Source: an uncultured Pelagibacteraceae bacterium
Lineage (GTDB): Bacteria; Pseudomonadota; Alphaproteobacteria; Pelagibacterales; Pelagibacteraceae
Length of the DNA: 64,000 nucleotides
Direction: 5' to 3'
Assembly (NCBI GenBank): GCA_902582765.1
Contig: CACHTK010000002.1
Span: 1 to 64,000 of the forward strand
Part shown: positions 37,302-52,335 of the stretch, one piece after another
How positions within the stretch are numbered: the stretch's first letter is position 1
Layout: each line of letters starts with the position of its first letter
The notes under the pieces: model-generated
Told to the model about the DNA's origin: nothing
What the model saw: only the letters and a program-made list of their open reading frames with translations
Databases searched by the model: none
Program-made: the position numbers and the translations under genes

Positions 37302-37697
37302 ATGAAGCTAACTATACCTTACTATTTACATAAAGCTGGCGCGGGTTTTCCATCCCCTGCTACGGACTATATTGAGGAAGACATCGATTTAAATGTTCAT
37401 TTAATCAAAAATGTTCCAGCAACCTTCATCATAAGAGTTCAAGGAAAATCAATGGTGGATGTTGGAATTAATGATGGCGATCTATTAGTTGTTGATAAAA
37501 GTTTAACACCAAAAAACTTCTCAACAGTTATTGCAAATGTTCATGACGAACTAGTTGTTAAAAGTTTAGTTCAAGAAAGAGATAAAAAATTTTTAACATC
37601 AGGCTCTAAAGAATTTACAGATCGAATTTTAATTAACGAAGATGAAGATATATTTATTTGGGGAGTTGTAACTTATGTCATCCATTCAGTATACTAA
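37302..37697 (+). CDS. umuD: UmuD-like S24 family (LexA/UmuD) autoprotease
   Basis: [44 protein letters not shown]. Confidence 0.92.
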
Positions 37698-38952
37698 AAA
37701 AATAGCACTTATTGATTGTAATTCTTTTTATGTTTCTTGTGAAAGATTATTCAATCCTAAAATAAGAAAAAAACCTGTTGTAGTTTTATCTAATAATGAT
37801 GGTTGCATAATTTCAAGATCAACTGAAGCTAAAGCTTTAGGTATTAAAATGGGAGAACCTTACTTTAAAGCAAAAGATATTATCATTAAAAATAAAGTTG
37901 AAGTCTTTTCATCTAATTATTCTTTATATGGAGATTTATCTAGAAGAGTGATGAGAACACTAAAAAGATTTAATTCTGCTATTGAAGTTTATTCTATTGA
38001 TGAAGCATTTTTAGATTTATCAAACTTTCCAGACAATGAAGTTGAAAAAGTTGGAAAAGAGATCAGAGAGACAGTTTTAAAATGGACAGGTATTCCAACT
38101 AGTATTGGGATTGCTAAAACAAAAACTTTAAGCAAGGTTGCAAATCATATTGCTAAGAAAAAAAAATCAGGTGTAACAAGTTTAATAGGAATTGAAAATA
38201 TTGATCCTATACTAGAAAAAGTAGAAATTAATGATGTATGGGGTGTTGGAAGACAATTAACAAAGTTTTATCATAAAAATGGGATTTATAACGCCAAGCA
38301 ACTTAAAAATAAATCTAATACATGGATAAAGAAAAACTCTAATGTTTTAGGGTCAAGAACTGCAATGGAGTTAAGAGGAGTTCCTTGTATTGATATTGAG
38401 ACAACTCAATCAAAAAGAAAAAGCTGCGTTGTATCTCGTTCTTTTGGTCAAAGAATTGAAAAATACCAAGAATTAAAAGAAGCAGTTGCAAATTATTGTT
38501 TGAATGCATCTGAAAAAATAAGATCTGAGTCTTTAATTGCAAAGTCAATTACTGTTTTTGTTAGAACTAGTCCTTTTCAGAGTAGATTTGGATATTATTC
38601 AAACTCAAAAACGATAGATTTTGCAATTTCTACAAACAACAGCATTGAAATAGTAAAAACTGCCCTAGTTGCTTTAGACTCTGTCTTTAAAAACGGTTAT
38701 CGTTATCAAAAAGCGGGTGTAATGCTTACTGGTTTATCTAATGAAGATGGTAGCAAGAACCTATTTTCTTCTGAAAAAGATGAGAAAATAAAGGGTTTAA
38801 TGAAGTCTATTGATAATACGAACTATCGATATGGAAGATCTACTCTAAGTCTTGCTAGTGCTGGTGTTCAAAAAAGATGGAACATGAGAAGAGAGCATTC
38901 ATCTAAAATAGATACTGCAGATTTTTATTTACTACCAACGATCAGAACTTAG
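37675..38952 (+). CDS. umuC: Y-family DNA polymerase V subunit UmuC
   Basis: [60 protein letters not shown]. Confidence 0.95.
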
Positions 38953-38982: not shown

Positions 38983-40167
38983 TCAATTGTTTGCTACAGC
39001 ATTGTAAATGCAACCTATTCCTATTCCAATTTCTAAACCGTTTTTCAAACTTGAGCTATCTACTAATACTTTCTTTAGCCACTTTGAAATTTCGTGATCA
39101 GGATATCTTACTTGAAAAATATGAAACCATCCGGATGCATACCCTTGCCTATTTATTTTTCTGAATACCTGATTACCATTGGATGGTTGAGAATTGTATT
39201 TTTTTTTTGCCCAAGGTTCTATTGACATTGGGTCCAGATAGCCTTCATGAAATATCTGAACAGCTTTTAATAATTTAGTTTCCATATTTTTAGGCAGATC
39301 TAAATTTGCTGCATAAGCCATTTCAATAACTAAAAATAACTCAGCTAAAGATTGATTGTGATAGTGAAGAGCTCTATTTCCACGAGTTGTTCTATCTTTA
39401 AAACTTCCATCTTTTAAAAGTTCTTTATTCATTCCTTTTAATACTTTTTTTATGTTATTTTTGTATTTTTTATGTTGCGAATGTTTAATAAATACATTTG
39501 GAAATGACCAACCACCTTGGTGACCATAAAAATCATTAATTGATTGATTGGGTATTCTTTTATAAAAACTTTTAAACCATTTATTTATAATTTTATGTCG
39601 ATAATCCTCAATTTTAAATCTCTTAAAATAAAAATCATAAATATAATTTAAATTCAGTATTGTTAATAATGTGCTAGCATCATCAAATTTAATTGCTGGA
39701 TCTTGTCCATCTTTATCTTTCCATACACTTTTGCAATCTTTTGATTTGAGATTTTTTTGTTTATCACTAGAATAACATGGTTTAGTTTTAGTAAGTGCAT
39801 CATTCGAAGCCCATATAAATAATTTATCAAAAAGTCTTTCTTTTAATATTTGATCATCTGTGGCTGACATAAAAATAGTTGCTTTACTAAATTGTTGGAA
39901 AACATCCTCAAAATGTCCACCTTCAACCTCATCAATGTTATCCATTCGAGAATTAAACCCTTTAATTCTTTGAGGTAGATCTTTATCAATTATATCAAAA
40001 CGTGTCTTATATTTATTAAATTCACAATATTTAATTTTATGTTCTTTACTCAAAGAATTATAGGTTTGTAAAATACCGTTTGGAACAAAAACATTCTCAC
40101 TTAACTGATAGGCGTAAGAAGAAGAATAAAAAAAATAAACAATTAAGAAAACTAAAATTTTTCTCAT
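38983..40167 (-). CDS. Alginate-lyase-family-like (alpha/alpha toroid) secreted protein
   Basis: Signal peptide; HQGGWSFPNV, GNRALHYHNQSLAELFLVIEMAYAANLDL. Confidence 0.6.
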   Translation of the reverse strand: MRKILVFLIVYFFYSSSYAYQLSENVFVPNGILQTYNSLSKEHKIKYCEFNKYKTRFDIIDKDLPQRIKGFNSRMDNIDEVEGGHFEDVFQQFSKATIFMSATDDQILKERLFDKLFIWASNDALTKTKPCYSSDKQKNLKSKDCKSVWKDKDGQDPAIKFDDASTLLTILNLNYIYDFYFKRFKIEDYRHKIINKWFKSFYKRIPNQSINDFYGHQGGWSFPNVFIKHSQHKKYKNNIKKVLKGMNKELLKDGSFKDRTTRGNRALHYHNQSLAELFLVIEMAYAANLDLPKNMETKLLKAVQIFHEGYLDPMSIEPWAKKKYNSQPSNGNQVFRKINRQGYASGWFHIFQVRYPDHEISKWLKKVLVDSSSLKNGLEIGIGIGCIYNAVANN

Positions 40168-40176
40168 AACTTAAAT

Positions 40177-40959
40177 TTATATTTTACTAAATGTAGATTT
40201 TTTTTTGTTCTTTAATGATAAATTATTGTAATTATAAGTTGTAGTACCTGTATCTCCAATTCGGTAAATTCCTATTTTAATATAAGGTTTATTAGGACCA
40301 TAAGGTCCATCTGTTTTTTTTGAAGATATGGGTACATCATAATGCTGTAAAATAAATTCATCATCTAAGTAATATTTAACAGATAAATATTTTGATTTTT
40401 TTTGATAATCAATTTCTGCCCTAAATTTATAAATTTTACCTACTTCTAAAGTTATAAAATTGTGCATTTTACAATTATCTTCAGAACATTCTCCTTTTGG
40501 AAACTTGTGAATTATACTCCACTTACCATTTAATCCAATCCATGAAGGTGGTGCACCACTATTTCTACCATCATGAATTTGAAAAATAGTAGTCCTTTTT
40601 GATGGAGCACCTTCTATTAATAAATCTGTTTCAAATATTGAGTGACCAATTGGTAGTTTATGAGTAACTTCTTGTCTTCCTGAGTAAGGATATCCTCCTG
40701 AAGACTTTTTATCATTTTTACATTTACCAATATCACCCTTGTCTAACTTAAATGTTATATCTTTAACTTTAAACTCATTTTTGTTGTAACTTTTTTTTGA
40801 CTTTCCATTCACAACAAGCGCTTCTTTATCAACTATACCACAAGAAACTTTCCATTTATTTTTATTTTTCCATTCTCCAGCATTTGCAGGAACATTAATA
40901 GTAATTACAATAATCAAAAATACCAGAAAACTTTTCATATATTTTTTAAAAATTACCAA
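40177..40959 (-). CDS. Secreted polysaccharide-lyase-like (concanavalin-like fold) protein
   Basis: Signal peptide; RQEVTHKLPIGHSIFETDLLIEG, TIFQIHDG, YLDDEFILQH, KIGIYRIGD. Confidence 0.6.
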   Translation of the reverse strand: MVIFKKYMKSFLVFLIIVITINVPANAGEWKNKNKWKVSCGIVDKEALVVNGKSKKSYNKNEFKVKDITFKLDKGDIGKCKNDKKSSGGYPYSGRQEVTHKLPIGHSIFETDLLIEGAPSKRTTIFQIHDGRNSGAPPSWIGLNGKWSIIHKFPKGECSEDNCKMHNFITLEVGKIYKFRAEIDYQKKSKYLSVKYYLDDEFILQHYDVPISSKKTDGPYGPNKPYIKIGIYRIGDTGTTTYNYNNLSLKNKKKSTFSKI

Positions 40960-42127
40960 CTACACTTTCATAGTGCACATAGCATGCATTATTCTCTTGG
41001 TCAGAAAAATTAGTGAATTTTTCCATACACTTAGTTAAACCCTCTTTAGCTGCTCCAGCTTTACTATATCCTATATACTTTAAAAGATATTCATCGTTAT
41101 TTTTATTTTTAATTATTGCTAAAAAATTACCTTTCATTTCCTCAAATTTTATTTCTTTAGGAACAACTTTAGAAGTAATTCTCTTAATTTTTTTTGCGCC
41201 CTCAGGCATATATTCTGAATCACGGATTTTATATTTATATTTCGATCTTGCTATTTTATCTTTAGATTTGTAATCACATTTTTCTTTATCCATAATTTTT
41301 TCACAATTTTTACTTATTACATACTCTTTAATAGATAGAGTTGATGGTTCAATTGAATTTGGATCATAAGCTGTGCTCCAATATCTATATAAACCAATTT
41401 TAAAAGCTATACCCCCAGTTTTGTCTAAAATCATGTTCGGTCCATAAAATTCGATTACTTTTTCATCGTTTAACCACATTATAAATTCTCCATCATCTTT
41501 TTTAGATGGTTTTATTTTAAACAGTGCAGTGCTGTATTCTTTTTTAAATGCAGTTAAACTCCCTAAATCGAATTTATACAACTTTTGTTTAACTCTGTTT
41601 GCTACAGGGTCAATATCTGTCCAATAAACTTCTTCTATTTGTTTATAATAAAATTGCATTCTATTGGGAAGATCGTCCTCATCGGTGGTATACATAATTT
41701 GCATTGAAGGGTAAATTATCTCTCCTCCTTTTTTAGTTCCAACTACTTGCCAAATATTGGCACTATGATTTTGTCCTGCATTTAATTTAAAAGTATATTT
41801 TAAGTAAACTTCCTTACCAAGTTTATGATAATTTTTCCTTTTAGTAACAAATTCCCATCTTTGAGCTTGATCATCTGAGAGATCCCAGTCTTCAGGATGC
41901 CCCTTCATACTATAATCAAGGGTAATCTCTACAGCTTCCTCATCTTCATTGTAATTAAGTATTTGTTCATGTTTTGTCAAAGAGTCATATGCAAGACTCA
42001 TTTTTTTCTTTGCTTCTTCACCAAGAATTTCTTTTTTAAATTTTTTCAAAGCATCAACTTTTTCTGCAAAGACGTTTGTGTTTATGAAAAATATTAAAGA
42101 AAATATAATTATTAAGTTTTTTTTCAT
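40946..42127 (-). CDS. Secreted polysaccharide-lyase-like (concanavalin-like fold) protein, paralogue of 43151-44113
   Basis: Signal peptide; EITLDYSMKGHPEDW...QRWE, YLKYTFKLN, WLNDEKVIEFYGPN, FKIGLYRYW. Confidence 0.55.
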   Translation of the reverse strand: MKKNLIIIFSLIFFINTNVFAEKVDALKKFKKEILGEEAKKKMSLAYDSLTKHEQILNYNEDEEAVEITLDYSMKGHPEDWDLSDDQAQRWEFVTKRKNYHKLGKEVYLKYTFKLNAGQNHSANIWQVVGTKKGGEIIYPSMQIMYTTDEDDLPNRMQFYYKQIEEVYWTDIDPVANRVKQKLYKFDLGSLTAFKKEYSTALFKIKPSKKDDGEFIMWLNDEKVIEFYGPNMILDKTGGIAFKIGLYRYWSTAYDPNSIEPSTLSIKEYVISKNCEKIMDKEKCDYKSKDKIARSKYKYKIRDSEYMPEGAKKIKRITSKVVPKEIKFEEMKGNFLAIIKNKNNDEYLLKYIGYSKAGAAKEGLTKCMEKFTNFSDQENNACYVHYESVVGNF

Positions 42128-42136
42128 TTGTATATT

Positions 42137-43147
42137 TTAGTTTAATTTTAATTTTTTTGTTGAACCATCTTTATAAGTAAATTCTACTTCTTCATTTGAA
42201 AGAGATTTTATTGATGTAAAGCCATCGTACTCAAAAATAAATTCGTTTAGTTTTTTTCTACTTTTCTTGCTCATTTTTTTACCTGGAGCATTTACACCGA
42301 CATCAATAATTAATTCAGCTCCATTTAGAAAAGCATTTACATAAGCTTTTATTGGAGGACCACAGGTCATAGCCTCTGTCAACCAAATTGGCTTATCAAT
42401 ATCAACACTTTTTAACAAATCTGCAAATTCATCTACCCAAAGCTGTTTATCACACTGACCATCTGGACCGCTTATATGGTGAATGTTTGCAATATCAAAG
42501 TGATCCTTAATTTTTGGCAAAGCTGATTTCCAATATTTTTTATTTTCTGGAAACATCCCTGCAGCACCAGCCATAACAATAACTGCATCTGGTTGCTGTT
42601 CTTTAATTACTTTTGAAGAAAAATTAAAAATTTCAACAAAATCTTCCTCACTTCCTTTAAAAAACATATCAAACTCAGGTTCATTCATAACGTCCCAATA
42701 TATAATTGGTTTTGTTAATCCAGGCATATCATTTAAACCATCTCCATCATATCGATCCACCAATTTTATAAGAAAAGTTTTATAATTTTCCATTGAACAT
42801 GGTTTGCTCAAATATTTTGTAAAATGTTTTCCAAATGGACTTCTGGACTTTTTTCTTTTACAAGATTTTTGATCCCAATTTGTATGAGGCCATATGGTTG
42901 CTAAAATTGTTTGGTTGTGATCTTGAGCGTATACAACGTATTTATCTACATCTTCCCAAAAAAATTTGCCTTTTTCACTTTCTATATGATTCCAAACAAA
43001 GGGTCCTGGATGAGGTCTAACCCATTGTCCGTCTTTGCCACGCATTTTTTTATCTCTCATTTCAGTTAATTCACCAAATCTAGATTGAGAATTTGCAAAA
43101 TTAGTCAAAAATAAGAGTGATAATAAAATCGTTAATAATTTTTTCAT
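42137..43147 (-). CDS. Clan GH-A-type glycoside hydrolase (GH39-like), secreted
   Basis: Signal peptide; IYWDVMNEPEFD (acid/base region), KPIWLTEAMTCGPP (candidate nucleophile). Confidence 0.65.
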   Translation of the reverse strand: MKKLLTILLSLLFLTNFANSQSRFGELTEMRDKKMRGKDGQWVRPHPGPFVWNHIESEKGKFFWEDVDKYVVYAQDHNQTILATIWPHTNWDQKSCKRKKSRSPFGKHFTKYLSKPCSMENYKTFLIKLVDRYDGDGLNDMPGLTKPIIYWDVMNEPEFDMFFKGSEEDFVEIFNFSSKVIKEQQPDAVIVMAGAAGMFPENKKYWKSALPKIKDHFDIANIHHISGPDGQCDKQLWVDEFADLLKSVDIDKPIWLTEAMTCGPPIKAYVNAFLNGAELIIDVGVNAPGKKMSKKSRKKLNEFIFEYDGFTSIKSLSNEEVEFTYKDGSTKKLKLN

Positions 43148-43150
43148 TAA

Positions 43151-44113
43151 TTAATTTATTTTGATTTCTGGTAAAGGCTTTGTCCATTTAATTGATTTAG
43201 AAATTTTTTTTCCATATGTAGGCATCCTATGACTACTTTTTCTAAAACTTACATAAGAAACAGAATCTTTATTTTCTGATTTATATAAGCATTTATCTTG
43301 ATCTAAAATTTCCTCGCATTTATCACTAAATCCGAATTCTTTTACTGTTAAAGATTGTGTCGGAGTTTCATTTAAAAGCGCATCTTTAAGCCATCGATAG
43401 AAACCCCATTTAAAAGTATATCCGTCTCCTATAGTAAAATTAGGACCATAAACCTCAAAAACTTTCTTATTATCAATCCAACCTATTAATTCTCCATTAT
43501 CTTCTTTTGATGCTAAAATTTTAAAACTAATTGTTCTGTAATTTTTAAATTGATCTACTGATCCTAAAGGAAATTTATATGAAACCTTGTCGAAATTAGA
43601 GTTTTCTGGGTCACCTTTTAAATAGAAAACTTCTTTAGTGAAGTTCAGCTGATGAACAACTTCATTTCCTCTATATTGTAATTTCATCCAAGGTAAAAGT
43701 CTCGAAGATCCTTTGTTGGCTATAACTTGAAAGAAACTCCCTCCTACTGCAGGATGTATAGGAAACTCATTTAATTTAAAAGTATATTTGATGTATGTTG
43801 GCTTTTTAAATTTTCTTGGTTTTTTTTTATTTGCTATCTCCCATCTTTGATTTCTCTCACCAGTTCTTTCCCAATCGTTTTTATGACCTTTAAATTTCGT
43901 ATCTAAAGTAATTTTTATTGCTTTACCATCTTCATCTTGATGTATAGATAGTGTTTTTTTCTTTGATATAGATCTATTTTCCTTAGATAGTTCTTTTTTT
44001 GCTTTTCCAATCAAAATTTCTTTTTTTAAAAATTTATACGGATTTTCAGAAGCATTAGAATTTTCAGATGCAAAAATAAGAAGTATTAATATTAAAAATA
44101 ATTTTTTCTTCAC
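43151..44113 (-). CDS. Secreted polysaccharide-lyase-like protein, paralogue of 40946-42127
   Basis: KITLDTKFKGHKNDW...QRWE, YIKYTFKLNEF, WIDNKKVFEVYGPNF, FKWGFYRWL. Confidence 0.55.
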   Translation of the reverse strand: MKKKLFLILILLIFASENSNASENPYKFLKKEILIGKAKKELSKENRSISKKKTLSIHQDEDGKAIKITLDTKFKGHKNDWERTGERNQRWEIANKKKPRKFKKPTYIKYTFKLNEFPIHPAVGGSFFQVIANKGSSRLLPWMKLQYRGNEVVHQLNFTKEVFYLKGDPENSNFDKVSYKFPLGSVDQFKNYRTISFKILASKEDNGELIGWIDNKKVFEVYGPNFTIGDGYTFKWGFYRWLKDALLNETPTQSLTVKEFGFSDKCEEILDQDKCLYKSENKDSVSYVSFRKSSHRMPTYGKKISKSIKWTKPLPEIKIN

Positions 44114-45282
44114 ATTTTGAACAATTTGTCAGAGAGGTTGACTAATTTTTCTCCCCAAAAAACCTCTTTTTGTATTCTGTTGAAATCAATATCAAAAACA
44201 GTAGACATGGCTGATGCATAAACAGATCTTGCATCCAATGTTACATTGAGATCTCTACCATCAAAAAGCTCTTTTTTTTTTAATCCTGGCCAATCTGTGT
44301 GCACTTGGCTTTTCTTAATTAATCCACCAGCCATAAATATTGCTGTTCCATAACCGTGCTCAGTTCCATTACCGCCATTTTGTTTAATGGTTCTCCCAAA
44401 CTCAGTAACAGTTAGTATCAACGTATCTTTATATGAGTCTTTAAGTTCAGCTTTTAAATTTTTTATAATGTCATCCATTTCAACTAAACATTTCGTATGA
44501 GTACCGTTCACTCCACCTTGGGCCGTATGTGTATCGAAACCATTTACCTCAAACACTGCAACTCTTGGTCCATTTGGTTTTCTTAAATATGCAGCAGCTT
44601 GTTTTGAAAGATTGTTATTTTCTCTTTTATCCCAATTGCTAGAATACCCAGCCATCATCTGTTCATTTTTCCGTTTTTTTATGTAGTTCATCATATCCAT
44701 TAACTCTTCTTCTGAGCTATCGGCATATATAGATTGTAATAAATTTAACGTTTCGTCTCTTGGAAGTTTTCCATCTGATGGAAAATAATTATTATTTTTA
44801 GGAACTCCTCTTAATAAAAGAGGCATAGGTAAAGATAATGCCAATCCTTCTCCTTGAAGCTTAGCTAATTTCATAGCTCTTCCTACCCAGCCTGTCTTTT
44901 CTTTATATGGAGTTCTTCCGCCAGACTCCATTAGGTTTTGGCCTTCAAAGTGAGATCTTGCTGTGTACGGAATACTTGTAGCATGGACTATAGCCCCTGT
45001 ATTTTGCTGCCAACAACTATGGAAAGTTTTTAGTTTTGGATGCAAAGCAAAATCTGAATCTAGCTTAATTGTATTTTCGATTAAAATATTCCTTCTTCTT
45101 TTTTCAAAATTTTTATCTCCGATTACGGGTACTGCACAAAGTCCATCCATTCCTCCCCTAAGCATAATAACTACTAGATTTTTCTTTCTTGATGAAGAGG
45201 CTAAGATAGGCAAATTAAATCCTGATAAAAATAAAGTAGTTGCTGCTGTACCTTTTAAAAAATCTCTTCTTGATATCTTCAT
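44110..45282 (-). CDS. DUF1501 family protein with Tat signal
   Basis: MKISRRDFLKGTAATTLFLSGF Tat motif; VVIMLRGGMDGL; TVTEFGRTIKQNGGNGTEHGYGTAIFMAGG. Confidence 0.9.
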   Translation of the reverse strand: MKISRRDFLKGTAATTLFLSGFNLPILASSSRKKNLVVIMLRGGMDGLCAVPVIGDKNFEKRRRNILIENTIKLDSDFALHPKLKTFHSCWQQNTGAIVHATSIPYTARSHFEGQNLMESGGRTPYKEKTGWVGRAMKLAKLQGEGLALSLPMPLLLRGVPKNNNYFPSDGKLPRDETLNLLQSIYADSSEEELMDMMNYIKKRKNEQMMAGYSSNWDKRENNNLSKQAAAYLRKPNGPRVAVFEVNGFDTHTAQGGVNGTHTKCLVEMDDIIKNLKAELKDSYKDTLILTVTEFGRTIKQNGGNGTEHGYGTAIFMAGGLIKKSQVHTDWPGLKKKELFDGRDLNVTLDARSVYASAMSTVFDIDFNRIQKEVFWGEKLVNLSDKLFKM

Positions 45283-46724
45283 GCTTTTAATACCTCTGGT
45301 AAATTAAATAGAATCATATGTTTTTCCTCATTAGTTTTAGCTCTTGCTACAATTTTTAAAATTTTATCAGGATTATCAAAGTTAGTACGAATTATTCTTT
45401 CATGGATAGTATTATCGATTTGATCACTTATTTTATACTGATGGAATGCTTTTTTAGCGTAAATTAATCTTCTAATAACTAACTCTGTTGATAGCCAGTC
45501 TTTTTCTAAGTCTGAATATCCATTTGGTTGTTTTTGCTTATAAGGATGACACCCAATATCTTCTAATAACCAACTTGGAAATCTCATTTCATGAGATGGT
45601 TTAAAACCGAATACAAATTGATTCATTTTATATTCACTAACAGGATATTTATAAATAGAACCTGACATATTAATTGTTGTTAACCACCAATTTTCTGGAT
45701 TTTGAAATTTTTTATATTTATCGTTGTATTCAAATGCAACTTTAATTGCAGCTTTGTGAACTTCTGGAAGGAGACCGTCTGATTTTTCCCAAGCTTTAAT
45801 AACTGGTGCAATCATTTCAGGTGTTGGATTGTCAGTAATTAAATATTTACATAGTTTTGTTGATATAAACTCTCTACAAGACGGGTGATTAACTAAATCT
45901 TTTATTGCAAGCTTAATACCTTTCTTTCCACTTTTGTAAACTTTTCCTAATACTTTTTTCTTACCTGGTTCATGTATTTCTCTGTCAAATGATACGTCAT
46001 GACCATGTTCTCTTCCCTTTGTCCATTTAGGTCTCCAACCAGTCATAATTTTTGCAAGTTCTATAACATCCTCTTGTGTGTATCCTCCATCTGGAGAAAT
46101 AGTATGCAGTTCCATTAACTCTCTAGCATGATTTTCATTTATAGTTGCTGGTTCTTTTTTTTGTCTTCTCCAATCTTCTTTTCCACTAATTGATTTTGGA
46201 CCAACATTATCTTTATTATCAAGATGCATTATCATTGGCCAAGCAAGAGTGGCTTCTTTTACCATGGTCTCAAATGTTTTATCCATATTGGATCTTAAAA
46301 ATTCTCTTTGATAAGCTCCAGTTGAAAAAGAAGACAAAGTTTGAGTATCACTTATTGTAAAATGATTTCCCCAAAAGTACCAAAGCTTTGCAAGAACTGG
46401 GTGGTCACTTCTTAAAGCCTCTGCGTGTCTTATACAAATTTCATTATTTGGCCAAAACTGTTTACCAACATCATTTTTTAATTGACGTTCTGCTCTTCTA
46501 AATCCTTCTGGGTCATTTTTATATTTTTTACTTAATGTTGTATTCTCTTCTACTCTAAACTTAATCCAATACTTTCTCATCTCTTTTTCGGATAAGATAT
46601 ATTTTCCTTTCCAATTGAATTCTGGAATGGTTTCAACTTGTTTTTGAGCCCAAACTAATGGATCAGATGGAGCTTTCTCATCAGGTTTTAAACCAAAAGC
46701 AACTTTTCTAAAAAAGTTTTTCAT
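45279..46724 (-). CDS. DUF1800 family protein
   Basis: LAKLWYFWGNHFTIS, NENHARELMELHTISPDGGYTQEDVIELAKIMTGWR. Confidence 0.92.
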   Translation of the reverse strand: MKNFFRKVAFGLKPDEKAPSDPLVWAQKQVETIPEFNWKGKYILSEKEMRKYWIKFRVEENTTLSKKYKNDPEGFRRAERQLKNDVGKQFWPNNEICIRHAEALRSDHPVLAKLWYFWGNHFTISDTQTLSSFSTGAYQREFLRSNMDKTFETMVKEATLAWPMIMHLDNKDNVGPKSISGKEDWRRQKKEPATINENHARELMELHTISPDGGYTQEDVIELAKIMTGWRPKWTKGREHGHDVSFDREIHEPGKKKVLGKVYKSGKKGIKLAIKDLVNHPSCREFISTKLCKYLITDNPTPEMIAPVIKAWEKSDGLLPEVHKAAIKVAFEYNDKYKKFQNPENWWLTTINMSGSIYKYPVSEYKMNQFVFGFKPSHEMRFPSWLLEDIGCHPYKQKQPNGYSDLEKDWLSTELVIRRLIYAKKAFHQYKISDQIDNTIHERIIRTNFDNPDKILKIVARAKTNEEKHMILFNLPEVLKA

Positions 46725-46742
46725 ATAAAATATTATAAAAAA

Positions 46743-47615
46743 TTATTTTATTTTTTCAATATTATGTATATTTGTTAAAGAATTATTAAATTCAGTCATA
46801 TTTTCTCTTCCTGAGACTTTTAAAATAACCAGACCAAATATAATAATTAAAGCTAGAGGTATAGCTGTAATTATACTTATATATTCAGCAATTATTATTA
46901 AATATAATGCATAAAAAGCTATTGATCTAAAAATTACACCTGTTTTAAAAACAGCAATAATAGCTAAAGAATGCTTTATCAAATTTAAAAAACTCATCTT
47001 TGAGGGACCAAAGTATCTTAATCCTCTTATTGAAGGAGATTTAGTTAAGTTATTTTCTGTCTTGGACAGGGAACCAGAAAAACTACTCCAAGTTGCTTTC
47101 TCCTCGATTAATTTTTTAACAGATTGTTTTGTAAGACAACTGTAATTTCCAAATTTTATAAATTTTCCTGTAAAGGTAAAAGTAATAATTTTATGAAAAA
47201 AATAACAGATTTTAAAAATAATACTTTCTGATCTTTTCACTCTTTCTCCAACAATAGTATTATCAGGATTATCTTTAATCTTTTCCACAAAGTTTCTTAT
47301 TTCCACAGGTCTATCTTCTCCATCTCCATCCATAGGAATTACATAATCAAACTCCTCATTTTCTGAGATATATTTAAGTCCTGCAGCAATACATCTTGCA
47401 TGTCCTCTATTATTTCTCATATTTATTAATTTTAAAGATTTAATATTATTTATATTTTGAGTTTCTAATATTTTTTCCTCAGTTGAAGCATCATTCACTA
47501 CAACTACTGAAAATGAAGCGTTAAGGTCAGATATATTAATATTAATTTCTTCAATTAATTTTGATACAGATTTAAAATCATTATAGACTGGAATTAATAT
47601 TATAATATTCATCAA
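46743..47615 (-). CDS. Glycosyltransferase family 2 with C-terminal TM segments
   Basis: NIIILIPVYNDFKSVSKLIEEI, VIPMDGDGEDRP. Confidence 0.9.
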   Translation of the reverse strand: MMNIIILIPVYNDFKSVSKLIEEININISDLNASFSVVVVNDASTEEKILETQNINNIKSLKLINMRNNRGHARCIAAGLKYISENEEFDYVIPMDGDGEDRPVEIRNFVEKIKDNPDNTIVGERVKRSESIIFKICYFFHKIITFTFTGKFIKFGNYSCLTKQSVKKLIEEKATWSSFSGSLSKTENNLTKSPSIRGLRYFGPSKMSFLNLIKHSLAIIAVFKTGVIFRSIAFYALYLIIIAEYISIITAIPLALIIIFGLVILKVSGRENMTEFNNSLTNIHNIEKIK

Positions 47616-47737
47616 CTTACTGAACCTATAAGCCTAAATAGAGAAGCAAAAAAACCATACCCTGAAAGTTCAATCAAAATAACAATTCCAATGATAAACA
47701 AAAGTTTTTTATTTTTTTGGTTTAATTGAAATTTCAT
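47612..47737 (-). CDS. Small membrane protein (41 aa) between two glycosyltransferases, not in the supplied ORF track
   Basis: MKFQLNQKNKKLLFIIGIVILIELSGYGFFASLFRLIGSVS; ATGA overlaps with both neighbours. Confidence 0.75.
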   Translation of the reverse strand: MKFQLNQKNKKLLFIIGIVILIELSGYGFFASLFRLIGSVS

Positions 47738-49044
47738 TTATATGTTAAGCATTTCATATCTTTATTGCACAAGTAAACTTCACTTGAGTTATAAATCCAT
47801 TTTGGTCTTTCTGGAAGATGATAAGATATATTTCCAGCGATCCATTCATTACCCTTAATATATTCCATTTTTCCAAGGTCCTTACCCTCTGTTTCATAAA
47901 AAACTTTAGCCTGCTTAGCTAAATTTTTACCATTAAAATCAGTTCTTTTGTCAGTTTGTGAGATTGAAACATAAGAATACAAAATTGGGGATAATAAGAA
48001 TAATATCAAAAAGATTGAAGAAAACGCTCTAATTTTTTCCAAATTAATTTGAGATTTATAAACATAAACAAATAATAAACCAAAACTTATATAAAAAGGT
48101 GTCATCCACATAGTTCTTATTTTTACACCCATCGTAAATGATGTTAGAAAGATAAACAGAATAGGAATTAAATTAATTGATAGCAAAAACAGAAGCTTTT
48201 CGTCGTTTAAACTAATATTTATTTTAAATTTTTTAACTAAAACAAAAATCATTAGTAAAAACGGCAATAATATACCAATTTGCTTAATTAAAAAAATCAT
48301 AGGGTGTTTTATGTGGTTAAAAATACTTGCTTCTTCTGAACCAGTTCTAAGAAGTCCATAAGTAATTGTTATATAATTATTTTCAGTTAACCAAATAATG
48401 TGTGGTAATAAAATTATAATAAATGGGACGAAAGAAACTAGACACTTTAAATTTAGTCTTTTTGTATAAATCATGTAAATTAAAAGTACGTCTATTGCTA
48501 AACCTAAATAAATAAATAAATATTTAGATAGAAACCCAAATCCAGCAAATAGACCGAGTAGTAACCAATCTAACATTTTATTATTCTTAATACCTTTCCA
48601 TAAATAAAAAACAGAAAGAGACCAAAAGGGTATTAAGCAAACATTTACATTAAATTCAGGTGTTGTGAAGTTGTAGAAGTATATTCCTTCTAATAATAAA
48701 ACAGATAACAAACAATAAATTTTATTATCAAAAAAGTCTTCGGCTAACTTAAAAACTACAATGAATGAAACAACGATACAAATTTGACTTAAAAAATAAT
48801 AAGCCCAGTCTTTAGATCCAAAAATTTGGTAAAAAATTTCTGGCAGCAATGCGCTCATTGGGGGATGCTTATTAAATCCCCAGTCTAGATTACTTCCCCA
48901 TGCTAATGCCTCGATAGTATCAAGTGGTAAATTGTGATTTGTTAAACTTGGAACCAATGTCCAAATTAATAAATGAGATGTAACAAAAATATAAAATAAA
49001 CTATTAATATTTTTATAAATGGCCATTTTTATTAATTTATACAA
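47734..49044 (-). CDS. Glycosyltransferase family 39 (ArnT/PMT-like) membrane protein
   Basis: LPLDTIEALAWGSNLDWGFNKHPPMSALLPEIFYQIFG; multiple TM. Confidence 0.88.
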   Translation of the reverse strand: MYKLIKMAIYKNINSLFYIFVTSHLLIWTLVPSLTNHNLPLDTIEALAWGSNLDWGFNKHPPMSALLPEIFYQIFGSKDWAYYFLSQICIVVSFIVVFKLAEDFFDNKIYCLLSVLLLEGIYFYNFTTPEFNVNVCLIPFWSLSVFYLWKGIKNNKMLDWLLLGLFAGFGFLSKYLFIYLGLAIDVLLIYMIYTKRLNLKCLVSFVPFIIILLPHIIWLTENNYITITYGLLRTGSEEASIFNHIKHPMIFLIKQIGILLPFLLMIFVLVKKFKINISLNDEKLLFLLSINLIPILFIFLTSFTMGVKIRTMWMTPFYISFGLLFVYVYKSQINLEKIRAFSSIFLILFLLSPILYSYVSISQTDKRTDFNGKNLAKQAKVFYETEGKDLGKMEYIKGNEWIAGNISYHLPERPKWIYNSSEVYLCNKDMKCLTYK

Positions 49045-49069: not shown

Positions 49070-49522
49070 ATGATGAATATATTCTCGAAATTCATAAAGT
49101 TGAGCATGGTAAAAATCTCTAAAAAATACATCCCAAAAGAAACAGAAAAGTATATGTGCGCTAAACATCTTGCTTTTTTTAAACAAAAATTAACAGAGTG
49201 GAAAAAAGATCTCAAAAGAACAAATAATGAAGCAATATTTAATGCTTCAATGGATGATAATAGTGCATCTGCAGATATTGTTGATCAAGCAAGCTCTTAT
49301 ACAGAAAAAAATGTTGAGATGAGAGCAATTAATAGACAAATAAAACTAATTTCAAAAATTGATGGTGCCTTAAAAAAAATACAAGATGGAACTTATGGTT
49401 TTTGTGAAGAAACTGCGGAACCTATTGGTCTTAAAAGATTAATGGCAAGACCAGTTGCCACTTTATGTATAGCAGCACAAGAAAAGCACGAAAAAGAAGA
49501 AAAAGTTTACGCTGATATTTAA
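49070..49522 (+). CDS. dksA: RNA polymerase-binding protein DksA
   Basis: DIVDQASSYTEKNVEMRAINRQIKLISKIDGALKKIQDGTYGFCEETAEPIGLKRLMARPVATLCI. Confidence 0.93.
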   Translation: MMNIFSKFIKLSMVKISKKYIPKETEKYMCAKHLAFFKQKLTEWKKDLKRTNNEAIFNASMDDNSASADIVDQASSYTEKNVEMRAINRQIKLISKIDGALKKIQDGTYGFCEETAEPIGLKRLMARPVATLCIAAQEKHEKEEKVYADI

Positions 49523-50145
49523 GGGTAATCTATCTCAGCGTCTTTATTTAATACTTTATATCCTTTAATTACGGCAGGACGTTTTGCAATATCCACATAC
49601 CACCTAGATAAACCTTTAAAATTTTCTAATCCAATATCATGTCTCTTATGTCTCGCAATCCAAGACCATGTTGCGATATCTGCAATTGAATACTCTTTAC
49701 CTGCTAAATAATCACTCGCAGAAAGTCTTGCTTCCAAATCCTCGTATAGTTTTCTTGTAATTTTAAAGTATCTTTCTTCTCCCCACTCGCTTTTACCTTG
49801 ATGATAATAATGAAACTGATGATGTTGTCCTATCATTGGACCAATCAAACCCATTTGAGCCATTAACCATTGATTTATTTCTAGTCTATTCTCTTCAGGA
49901 TAAAACATTTTACTTTTTGCACCTAGATACATCAGTATTGCTCCGGATTCGAAGATTGATTTATTATTTTCGTGATCGGTTATTACTGGAATTTTGTTAA
50001 ATGGACTAATTTTTTTGAATTCTGCTTTATGTTGTTCACCTTCGGACAAATTTACCTTTGTAACTTTATAATCAAGTTTTATTTCTTCAAGCATGATACT
50101 AATTTTCCAACCATTCGGAGTATCAGCAGTAAATAGCTCAATCAC
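49519..50145 (-). CDS. Glutathione S-transferase family protein
   Basis: MIELFTADTPNGWKISIMLEEI; NKIPVITDHENNKSIFESGAILMYL. Confidence 0.92.
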   Translation of the reverse strand: MIELFTADTPNGWKISIMLEEIKLDYKVTKVNLSEGEQHKAEFKKISPFNKIPVITDHENNKSIFESGAILMYLGAKSKMFYPEENRLEINQWLMAQMGLIGPMIGQHHQFHYYHQGKSEWGEERYFKITRKLYEDLEARLSASDYLAGKEYSIADIATWSWIARHKRHDIGLENFKGLSRWYVDIAKRPAVIKGYKVLNKDAEIDYP

Positions 50146-51157
50146 TATTTTACACCCAATCTGTCTTTGATAGTATTAGATGCTGTTGTAAATTCAAATC
50201 TATATTTTTCGTTAGGTCTTGCATACTTGAAACAACCTCTAGCAGCTAGAGCACCTTCATGAAAACCTGATAAGATTAATTTAAGTTTTCCTGGGTAAGT
50301 ACATATATCACCAATAGCAAATATACCTTTCTTGTTAGTTTCAAAGTTTTCAGTATTAACTGGAATTACTTTTTTATCTAAGTTAAGGCCCCATTCTGCT
50401 ATTGGTCCAAGTTGCATAATCAAACCAAAAAATCCCAAAACATAATCTGCTTTTAATATTTTACTTTCCCCATCTTCACTTTTAATTTCAACTTCTTCTA
50501 AAGATCCATTTCCTTTGACATCTTTAATTGAGTACTTGGTAAATAATTTAATTATATTTTTTTCACTTAATTCTTTAATTTTTTTAACACTCGCAGGTAC
50601 GCCTCTAAACTCGTCTCTTCTATGGATAAGTGATACATTAGAAGTATTAGATAGTTCAATCGCCCAATCAAGAGCACTATCACCTCCACCAAATATTACA
50701 ACCGACTTATCTTTAAAAATTGTTTTGTCTTTTATTGAGTATAAAACTGAAGTGCCATCAAACTTTTCTGCACTTTTTGTTGTAAACTTTCTTGGTTCAA
50801 ATGACCCAACACCTCCAGCAATTACAACATTTGGCGTATGGAATTTTTTTCCACTGGTTGTTTTAACAATCCAGCTCTCATTCTCACTAGTAACTTCTTG
50901 AACTCTGTCATTTAAATGAAACTTAAAGTTAAATGGTTTAATTTGTTCTATTAAATTGTTTGTAAGTTCCTCTCCAGTACACTCTGGAACTGCAGGAATA
51001 TCATAAATTGGTTTATCTGGATAAAGTTCTATACATTGACCACCAATTTTATCCAGGTTATCAACTATTTCACATTTCAATCCAATAATTCCAAGTTGAT
51101 GTGCACAAAATAATCCAGTTGGACCTGCACCGATAATAACAACATCAGTTTTAATCA

Positions 51158-51158
<1 letters not shown>
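50145..51158 (-). CDS. Ferredoxin--NADP reductase (thioredoxin-reductase-like type)
   Basis: [79 protein letters not shown]. Confidence 0.92.
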
Positions 51159-51534
<376 letters not shown>

Positions 51535-51555
51535 ATATTTCGTAACTAATTGTTA

Positions 51556-52335
51556 CTACGCTCTTCTTGTAGAGTTAGATACTGCACAAGACCAGATAAT
51601 TAAACCAAATGCGATTTTATTAACAAAGTCTGCTAAGTTATAGATAACGTTTAACGCGTTACCATCTATTCCACCTGTTAGGTAACCAAAAATGTAACCT
51701 AATGGGTAAATAGCCCAACCTACAGTAACAATCATTCTTAAAGCTCCAAATGCAGTTACTAAAGATTTATTTCCAGATTTAGCAGCAACTTTTCCTGCTT
51801 CTCCTGAAAAGATTTCATAAAGAATGTAAATCCATCCAGCCATACCGATTATGAAACCTAGTGTAGCATTGATGAATCCAGCTTCTCCAAGATATCCACC
51901 TATTAACATAACTAGTGAACCGATTAAGATTCTCCAGAATATGTTTGTGTCAACTTTTCTTACTGCTGAAAGAATTAAGTAAAATTCTACTAGCTGTAGT
52001 GGTACAGTAATTAACCAGTCAATGTATCTGTAAACAGTTGGAGTATCACCTGTTTCTATCCAAACTGCTCTCATATACATATAGTGAATAAATGCTATAC
52101 CTGTTACTAATCCAGCTACGTTTACTGATTTTCTCCATTGCGAACTGACGTTAGCCTGTTCCATAAAGAAAAACGCTGTAGCTGCTAACATACCCATTGA
52201 TATTAACCAAAACGAAATACCTACGAAATCGTCTGTAGCTAAAAAGGCTGTTGCTGCGTTAGCTGCTGTAGTTGCTCCGAAAAGCACTGCCGCTAATGCT
52301 AACATTTTCATTGTCTTCATAAAAAACTCCCTCAT
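51556..52335 (-). CDS. Proteorhodopsin (blue-tuned, light-driven proton pump type)
   Basis: RYIDWLITVPLQLVEFYLIL (retinal-binding helix C; Asp acceptor, Gln tuning residue, Glu donor), NLADFVNKIAFGLIIW (Schiff-base Lys). Confidence 0.97.
   Translation of the reverse strand: MREFFMKTMKMLALAAVLFGATTAANAATAFLATDDFVGISFWLISMGMLAATAFFFMEQANVSSQWRKSVNVAGLVTGIAFIHYMYMRAVWIETGDTPTVYRYIDWLITVPLQLVEFYLILSAVRKVDTNIFWRILIGSLVMLIGGYLGEAGFINATLGFIIGMAGWIYILYEIFSGEAGKVAAKSGNKSLVTAFGALRMIVTVGWAIYPLGYIFGYLTGGIDGNALNVIYNLADFVNKIAFGLIIWSCAVSNSTRRA

Follow-up and report, generated by a model that had tools for sequence, protein, structure and literature searches.

The SAR11 group, the most abundant bacteria in surface seawater, is said to have little capacity for polysaccharide degradation. 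What, then, would a row of genes for exported, polysaccharide-lyase-like proteins do in such a genome: obtain food, or work on the cell's own coat? The genes in question lie at positions 38983-49044 of a stretch of 64,000 nucleotides (hereafter the window) of contig CACHTK010000002.1, from an uncultured Pelagibacteraceae bacterium whose genome assembly (GCA_902582765.1; 0.96 Mb) is 70.6% complete. A first reading of the sequence letters, here called the original prediction, had proposed a self-contained system of secreted proteins acting on a self-made glycan rather than on food. We found that Pelagibacter has a flexible genomic island between umuDC and a GT2-GT39-dksA core (GT, glycosyltransferase family), and that this locus is one of its versions. 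The features of the locus and its flanks, in window positions, are as follows (PL, polysaccharide lyase; GH, glycoside hydrolase; Sec, general secretory pathway; Tat, twin-arginine translocation).

37302..38952, plus strand: umuD-umuC, the conserved left flank of the island; umuC faces GT39 in 74/74 genomes that have the two genes on one contig
38983..40167, minus strand: AlgL-like (PL5-like, PF05426, 26.9 bits) protein with a Sec signal peptide; variable cargo
40177..40938, minus strand: PLc, a PF14099 lyase-like protein (44.7 bits) with a Sec signal peptide; variable cargo
40946..42127, minus strand: PLb, a PF14099 lyase-like protein (41.5 bits) with a Sec signal peptide; variable cargo
42137..43147, minus strand: GH-A hydrolase (GH39/PslG-like fold by Foldseek; NEP and TEA glutamates) with a Sec signal peptide; variable cargo
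43151..44113, minus strand: PLa, a PF14099 lyase-like protein (39 bits) with a Sec signal peptide; variable cargo
44110..45282, minus strand: DUF1501 protein (PF07394, 95.6 bits) with a Tat signal (TAT_signal above cut-off); variable cargo
45279..46724, minus strand: DUF1800 protein (PF08811, 243.5 bits) without a signal of its own; variable cargo
46743..47615, minus strand: GT2, a GtrB/ArnC-like polyprenyl-phosphate sugar transferase (PF00535; PHROG GtrB-like); constant right flank
47734..49044, minus strand: GT39/PMT_2 membrane glycosyltransferase (PF13231, 109.6 bits); constant right flank
49070..52335, mixed strands: dksA (plus), gst, FNR-like, ferredoxin and proteorhodopsin (minus), the conserved core past the right flank, its order kept in most loci that reach so far

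The positions of umuC and GT39 were sought in 201 relatives. In all 74 Pelagibacter genomes with both genes on one contig, umuC faced the GT2-GT39 pair at the same site and in the same orientation, and the gap between umuC and GT39 ranged from 923 bp, where GT2 stands alone, to 32 kb (median 3.6 kb). Past GT39 came dksA, gst, ferredoxin reductase, ferredoxin and proteorhodopsin. Of the 105 genomes with a GT39 match, 95 belonged to the same genus; the GT2-GT39 pair was present genus-wide, including loci without a lyase, and GT2 remained in loci without other cargo.

We fetched 51 of these loci and read their gene content, naming cargo families by annotation. PF14099-type genes occurred in 25 loci, PF05426-type genes in 19, and either type in 36; DUF1501/DUF1800 occurred in 18 and GH-A in nine. 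The same set harbored urease (six loci), phosphoenolpyruvate (PEP) carboxylase (six), a tripartite ATP-independent periplasmic (TRAP) transporter with ring-cleavage genes (five), an ammonium transporter fused to SpoIIE (four) and a GMP-reductase-like gene (four). TauD was also among the alternative cargo, and 13 further loci had a gap that fits GT2 only. Close relatives carry different genes at this site, and at a linkage threshold of 45% identity the main PF14099 cluster falls into about fifteen subfamilies. Across the 121 relatives used for profile searches (24 of them near complete), 9 of 13 DUF1800, 33 of 71 PF14099 and 11 of 18 PF05426 hits lay strictly between the flanks, a site that makes up about 1% of the genome; the remaining four DUF1800 hits and several more lyases were on contigs that break at the island site. 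DUF1800 was assigned to this island in all 13 genomes that have it. A second shared lyase hotspot was rejected, since 12 other PL-bearing regions that were inspected lay at scattered sites.

A fixed nine-gene system was rejected as well, because the lyase and DUF genes were gained and lost independently across loci. The self-contained system of the original prediction was therefore not borne out: cargo is swapped among close relatives, and unrelated cargo shares the site. As for its alternative, a common and already characterised SAR11 core locus, the site is indeed common, but the cargo is not core, and no description of the umuC/GT2-GT39 island or its cargo was found in the part of the literature covered, with subscription journals and preprints outside its scope.

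Flexible islands as such are known in SAR11 (PMC7318151, PMC11898729, PMC4033161). The present one shares fixed flanks, differing cargo in close relatives and mosaic alleles with replacement flexible genomic islands (PMC4033161) such as the SAR11 O-chain cluster (PMC11898729), but it occupies another site, carries lyases and nutrient genes instead of glycan synthesis genes, and has empty versions. Function is not alike between versions, which hold lyases, urease or nothing; the island is therefore of a mixed flexible type and no replacement island in the strict sense. It adds a second small, well-bounded hypervariable locus to the O-chain cluster, with its empty versions as natural controls.

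How the cargo moves can be read from its alleles. In 21 loci, umuC shares at least 97.6% identity with that of the window; DUF1800 was only 55-57% identical in 19 of these and 97% identical in two, whereas in a more distant locus (umuC 87.5%) it was 79% identical. The discordance between the two genes indicates that cargo alleles move independently of the flanks. The 64-kb window contains no tRNA gene, and no integrase was present among the annotated cargo families. The mosaic DUF1800 and DUF1501 alleles make homologous recombination in the conserved flanks the likely mechanism of exchange. The cargo genes tested had ratios of nonsynonymous to synonymous substitution (dN/dS) of about 0.05-0.3 against their relatives (PLb about 0.1), low values that place them under purifying selection.

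Such swapping could have been driven by predation, with exchanged enzymes altering glycan epitopes after synthesis and phages or grazers maintaining the cargo diversity. The site resembles the O-chain cluster, whose diversity is documented in Pelagibacterales (PMC11898729), cargo differs between very close relatives, and the flanking GT2 resembles the GtrB of O-antigen conversion. Nevertheless, we regard predation-driven editing as quite unlikely, given that the alternative cargo is in large part nutritional, that no PADLOC defence family was hit and that the scans run against viral contigs gave no relatives. On the latter two grounds, a defence system and phage-borne cargo, respectively, were also rejected.

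We then considered what the window's version encodes. The nine minus-strand genes were confirmed, and the Pfam scan upheld the families first assigned to them. In contrast, an extra small open reading frame was not supported; the listed frames at 41013-41273 and 44963-45307 are antisense over genes. Spacing from the AlgL-like gene to GT2 was 3-18 bp or a 4-bp overlap, with 118 bp between GT2 and GT39, and this tight packing makes the nine-gene arrangement operon-like. PLc probably starts at the ATG at 40938 rather than at the TTG at 40959.

Signal peptides were called by a hydrophobicity heuristic applied to the N-termini, and the lipobox was checked. The heuristic agreed with the original prediction for the five carbohydrate-active-enzyme-like proteins, none of which has a lipobox. 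It flagged 31/31 members of the PLa/PLb family, 10/10 of PLc, 7/7 of AlgL, 71/73 of GH-A and 90/92 of other PF14099 cargo, whereas only 1/90 UmuC and 0/17 UreC controls were flagged. This predicts export of these proteins to the periplasm.

PLa, PLb and PLc scored 39-45 bits against a curated PF14099 cut-off of 29.9, and PLa and PLb are paralogues with 39% identity. A profile of the PF14099 set matched the glucuronan lyase 2zzj of family PL20 (E 1e-14) and, more weakly, heparinase I of family PL13 (E 8e-5). All three proteins keep the Gln of the Q-x-x motif and the Tyr of the G-x-Y motif found in those enzymes; they are nonetheless remote from them (even among the SAR11 proteins, identity to one reference is 16-42%), and their His position varies. 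PLc retains the His of Q-I-H, and in its family the R, Q-I-H and Y motifs are intact in 10/10 members. PLa and PLb have Val or Ile there (PLb reads Q-V-V, with R and Y kept), as do all 31 members of their family where PL7 and PL13 have His, and Lys takes this position in half of the c2 group.

These substitutions would suit exported proteins of concanavalin fold that bind glycan without cleaving it. However, Ile occupies this position in the PL20 structure 2zzj as well (Q-F-I), with Gln and Tyr kept, so the missing His in PLa and PLb is no proof of lost activity, and the notion of PF14099 lyases degenerate through His loss is weakened. Given, in addition, the Gln and Tyr of all three window proteins and the complete motif of PLc, we consider a purely binding role highly improbable.

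The AlgL-like protein is a weak PF05426 match (26.9 bits against a cut-off of 22.2) and falls far below the NCBIfam equivalog cut-offs, while its family profile matched the PL5 alginate lyase A1-III (1hv6, E 2.6e-14). It shares with PL5 AlgL the active-site Arg and Tyr and a signal peptide. It differs in that the Asn-His, kept in c25 relatives, is not clear in the window protein, and in that the island has no alginate synthesis genes. Judged by family kinship and export signals, we infer that the exported proteins cut an acidic polysaccharide; to this extent, the proposal that a streamlined genome encodes exported proteins for cleaving polysaccharides is supported.

The GH-A protein matched a GH10 model below the cut-off and had no significant match to the GH39 family profile. 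It has two invariant glutamates, E156 (NEP) and E258 (TEA), and its predicted model (pLDDT 64) retrieved the GH39 xylosidase XynB1 and PslG in Foldseek (E about 1e-7). As the GH39 likeness lies in the fold, without a family profile match, we filed the protein under clan GH-A and not under GH39; on its model it is a clan GH-A member and candidate kin of GH39, in line with its first label. It resembles the GH39 protein PslG (5bx9, 9g17) in the GH-A barrel, the acid/base Glu in NEP, the nucleophile Glu and the export signal, but it is shorter and only about 13% identical. Its 66 named loci are all from Pelagibacteraceae, mostly single-cell genomes, which bears out the SAR11 assignment of the window.

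Outside SAR11, 246 sampled genomes of the class yielded a single GH-A relative (G272:C27, L153:8053-10239), a domain of a 728-residue protein with repeats that were named Calx-beta-like by eye; no lyase was recognised in its neighbourhood. Immediately upstream of the GH-A gene, 15 loci carry c28 and its small partner c29, which also occur off the island (L091, L092). The c28 protein (L059:135-2606, L061:3773-6765 and similar loci) is exported, rich in Ala, Gly and Met and about 820 residues long, with a collagen-like PGNPGQPG tail and no Pfam match; by appearance it looks like a surface fibre.

DUF1501 and DUF1800 had no Protein Data Bank relative by sequence, and a predicted DUF1800 fold was not used (pLDDT 48). 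The pair occurs in bacterial chitin synthase operons (PMC5122149). Those pairs are likewise adjacent and co-oriented, with a Tat signal on DUF1501 and glycan genes adjoining, but the present locus has no chitin synthase, epimerase or aminotransferase, and its GT2 is GtrB/ArnC-like (PHROG GtrB-like, E 3.8e-21). The GT2-GT39 pair itself recalls O-antigen and lipid A modification by GtrB/ArnC with an ArnT-like GT39, in which a polyprenyl-phosphate sugar transferase stands beside a membrane transferase, except that here the pair is constant flank and not cargo.

The majority of the loci read thus carry exported polyuronate-lyase-like genes, without a canonical way to use the products, which brings back the question of the cell's own coat. 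Lyases used for feeding yield unsaturated uronates, normally used via KduI or a DEH (4-deoxy-L-erythro-5-hexoseulose uronate) reductase and then 2-keto-3-deoxy-6-phosphogluconate (KDPG) aldolase. Neither KDPG aldolase (PF01081; other aldolase families were not searched) nor KduI (PF04962; other reductase families were not searched) was found in any of the 121 relatives, while the search controls for the two models gave matches in 8/14 and 6/14 genomes, respectively. TonB receptors were found in 2 of 37 same-genus genomes and were missing from 35, including the window's own, with its 70.6% completeness; the absence of a TonB importer from the window, as first noted, thus extends to its genome. 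Unlike a polysaccharide utilisation locus, the island has no TonB/SusCD-type importer in or near it, and no transporter adjoins the lyases in the window. A strong match to UDP-glucose/GDP-mannose dehydrogenase was present in 29 of the 37 genomes. Enzymes of this type make UDP-glucuronate or GDP-mannuronate, and same-genus cells are probably able to make a uronate glycan. PslG acts on the polymer of its own maker, and the nearness of the GH-A fold to GH39 and PslG would lend the own-target reading further backing.

Together, the missing KDPG aldolase and KduI, the rarity of TonB receptors and the common sugar-nucleotide dehydrogenase led us to favor editing of the cell's own envelope glycan, to which we give about an even chance. 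In the window's version, one operon would encode five proteins that are exported by Sec, probably reside in the periplasm and cleave or bind glycans, together with the Tat-exported DUF1501 and its DUF1800 partner. At the envelope, an acidic polysaccharide that contains uronates would be trimmed or turned over by the exported proteins, and strains that exchange cargo by recombination in the flanks would come to differ in their surface editing. Several points weigh against this. The island contains no polymerase, flippase or synthase, and its other cargo (urease, ammonium transporter, TRAP block) favors a nutritional role by association. The signal peptides denote periplasmic export and are no proof of release from the cell; confidence in the GH-A model is modest; and lyases do not co-vary with DUF1501/DUF1800, being present in 13/18 pair-bearing loci and in 23/33 loci that lack the pair. 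Finally, the adjacency of GT2-GT39 had to be discounted as support. It was rejected as proof of a self-made target because the pair is a constant flank that remains in loci without lyases, so it is no evidence that the lyases act on the GT product. The claim of own glycan rather than food thus stands indirectly, on the metabolic genes and TonB receptors, but loses the GT2-GT39 argument.

Because of the other cargo at the site, we ranked a nutritional island second. Here the enzymes would cut dissolved acidic poly- or oligosaccharides in the periplasm, followed by sugar ATP-binding cassette (ABC) or TRAP uptake and non-canonical catabolism. Urease, PEP carboxylase, the ammonium transporter, TauD and the TRAP/ring-cleavage/sulfatase block all accord with this, and sugar ABC transporters were assigned to Pelagibacter in a 2023 metagenome study (PMC10322874). 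Against the catabolic and receptor counts above and the lack of a transporter beside the lyases, feeding seems possible but less likely than envelope editing. A bolder extension of envelope editing, in which a swap-locus of exported uronate lyases serves no food use and diversifies the surface strain by strain, changing phage receptors or grazer recognition, appears rather unlikely to us.

The alternative cargo included further gene sets. The urease operon occupied the same insertion site in L060, L062, L127, L130, L131, L133, L137 and L143. A block of TRAP transporter, extradiol dioxygenase, FAA hydrolase, FAD monooxygenase and BKACE genes, which also includes a sulfatase without a signal peptide, was found at the island site in L054, L134, L138, L139, L141 and L143. 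PEP carboxylase was island cargo in six genomes (L114, L115, L117, L119, L120 and L122), and anaplerosis may therefore vary among close relatives. The fusion of an ammonium transporter with a SpoIIE phosphatase domain lies at L110:2348-4498. Additionally, the c26 family (L083:11092-12471), an exported beta-lactamase-fold-like protein of about 460 residues that scores below the Pfam cut-off, recurs beside the lyases.

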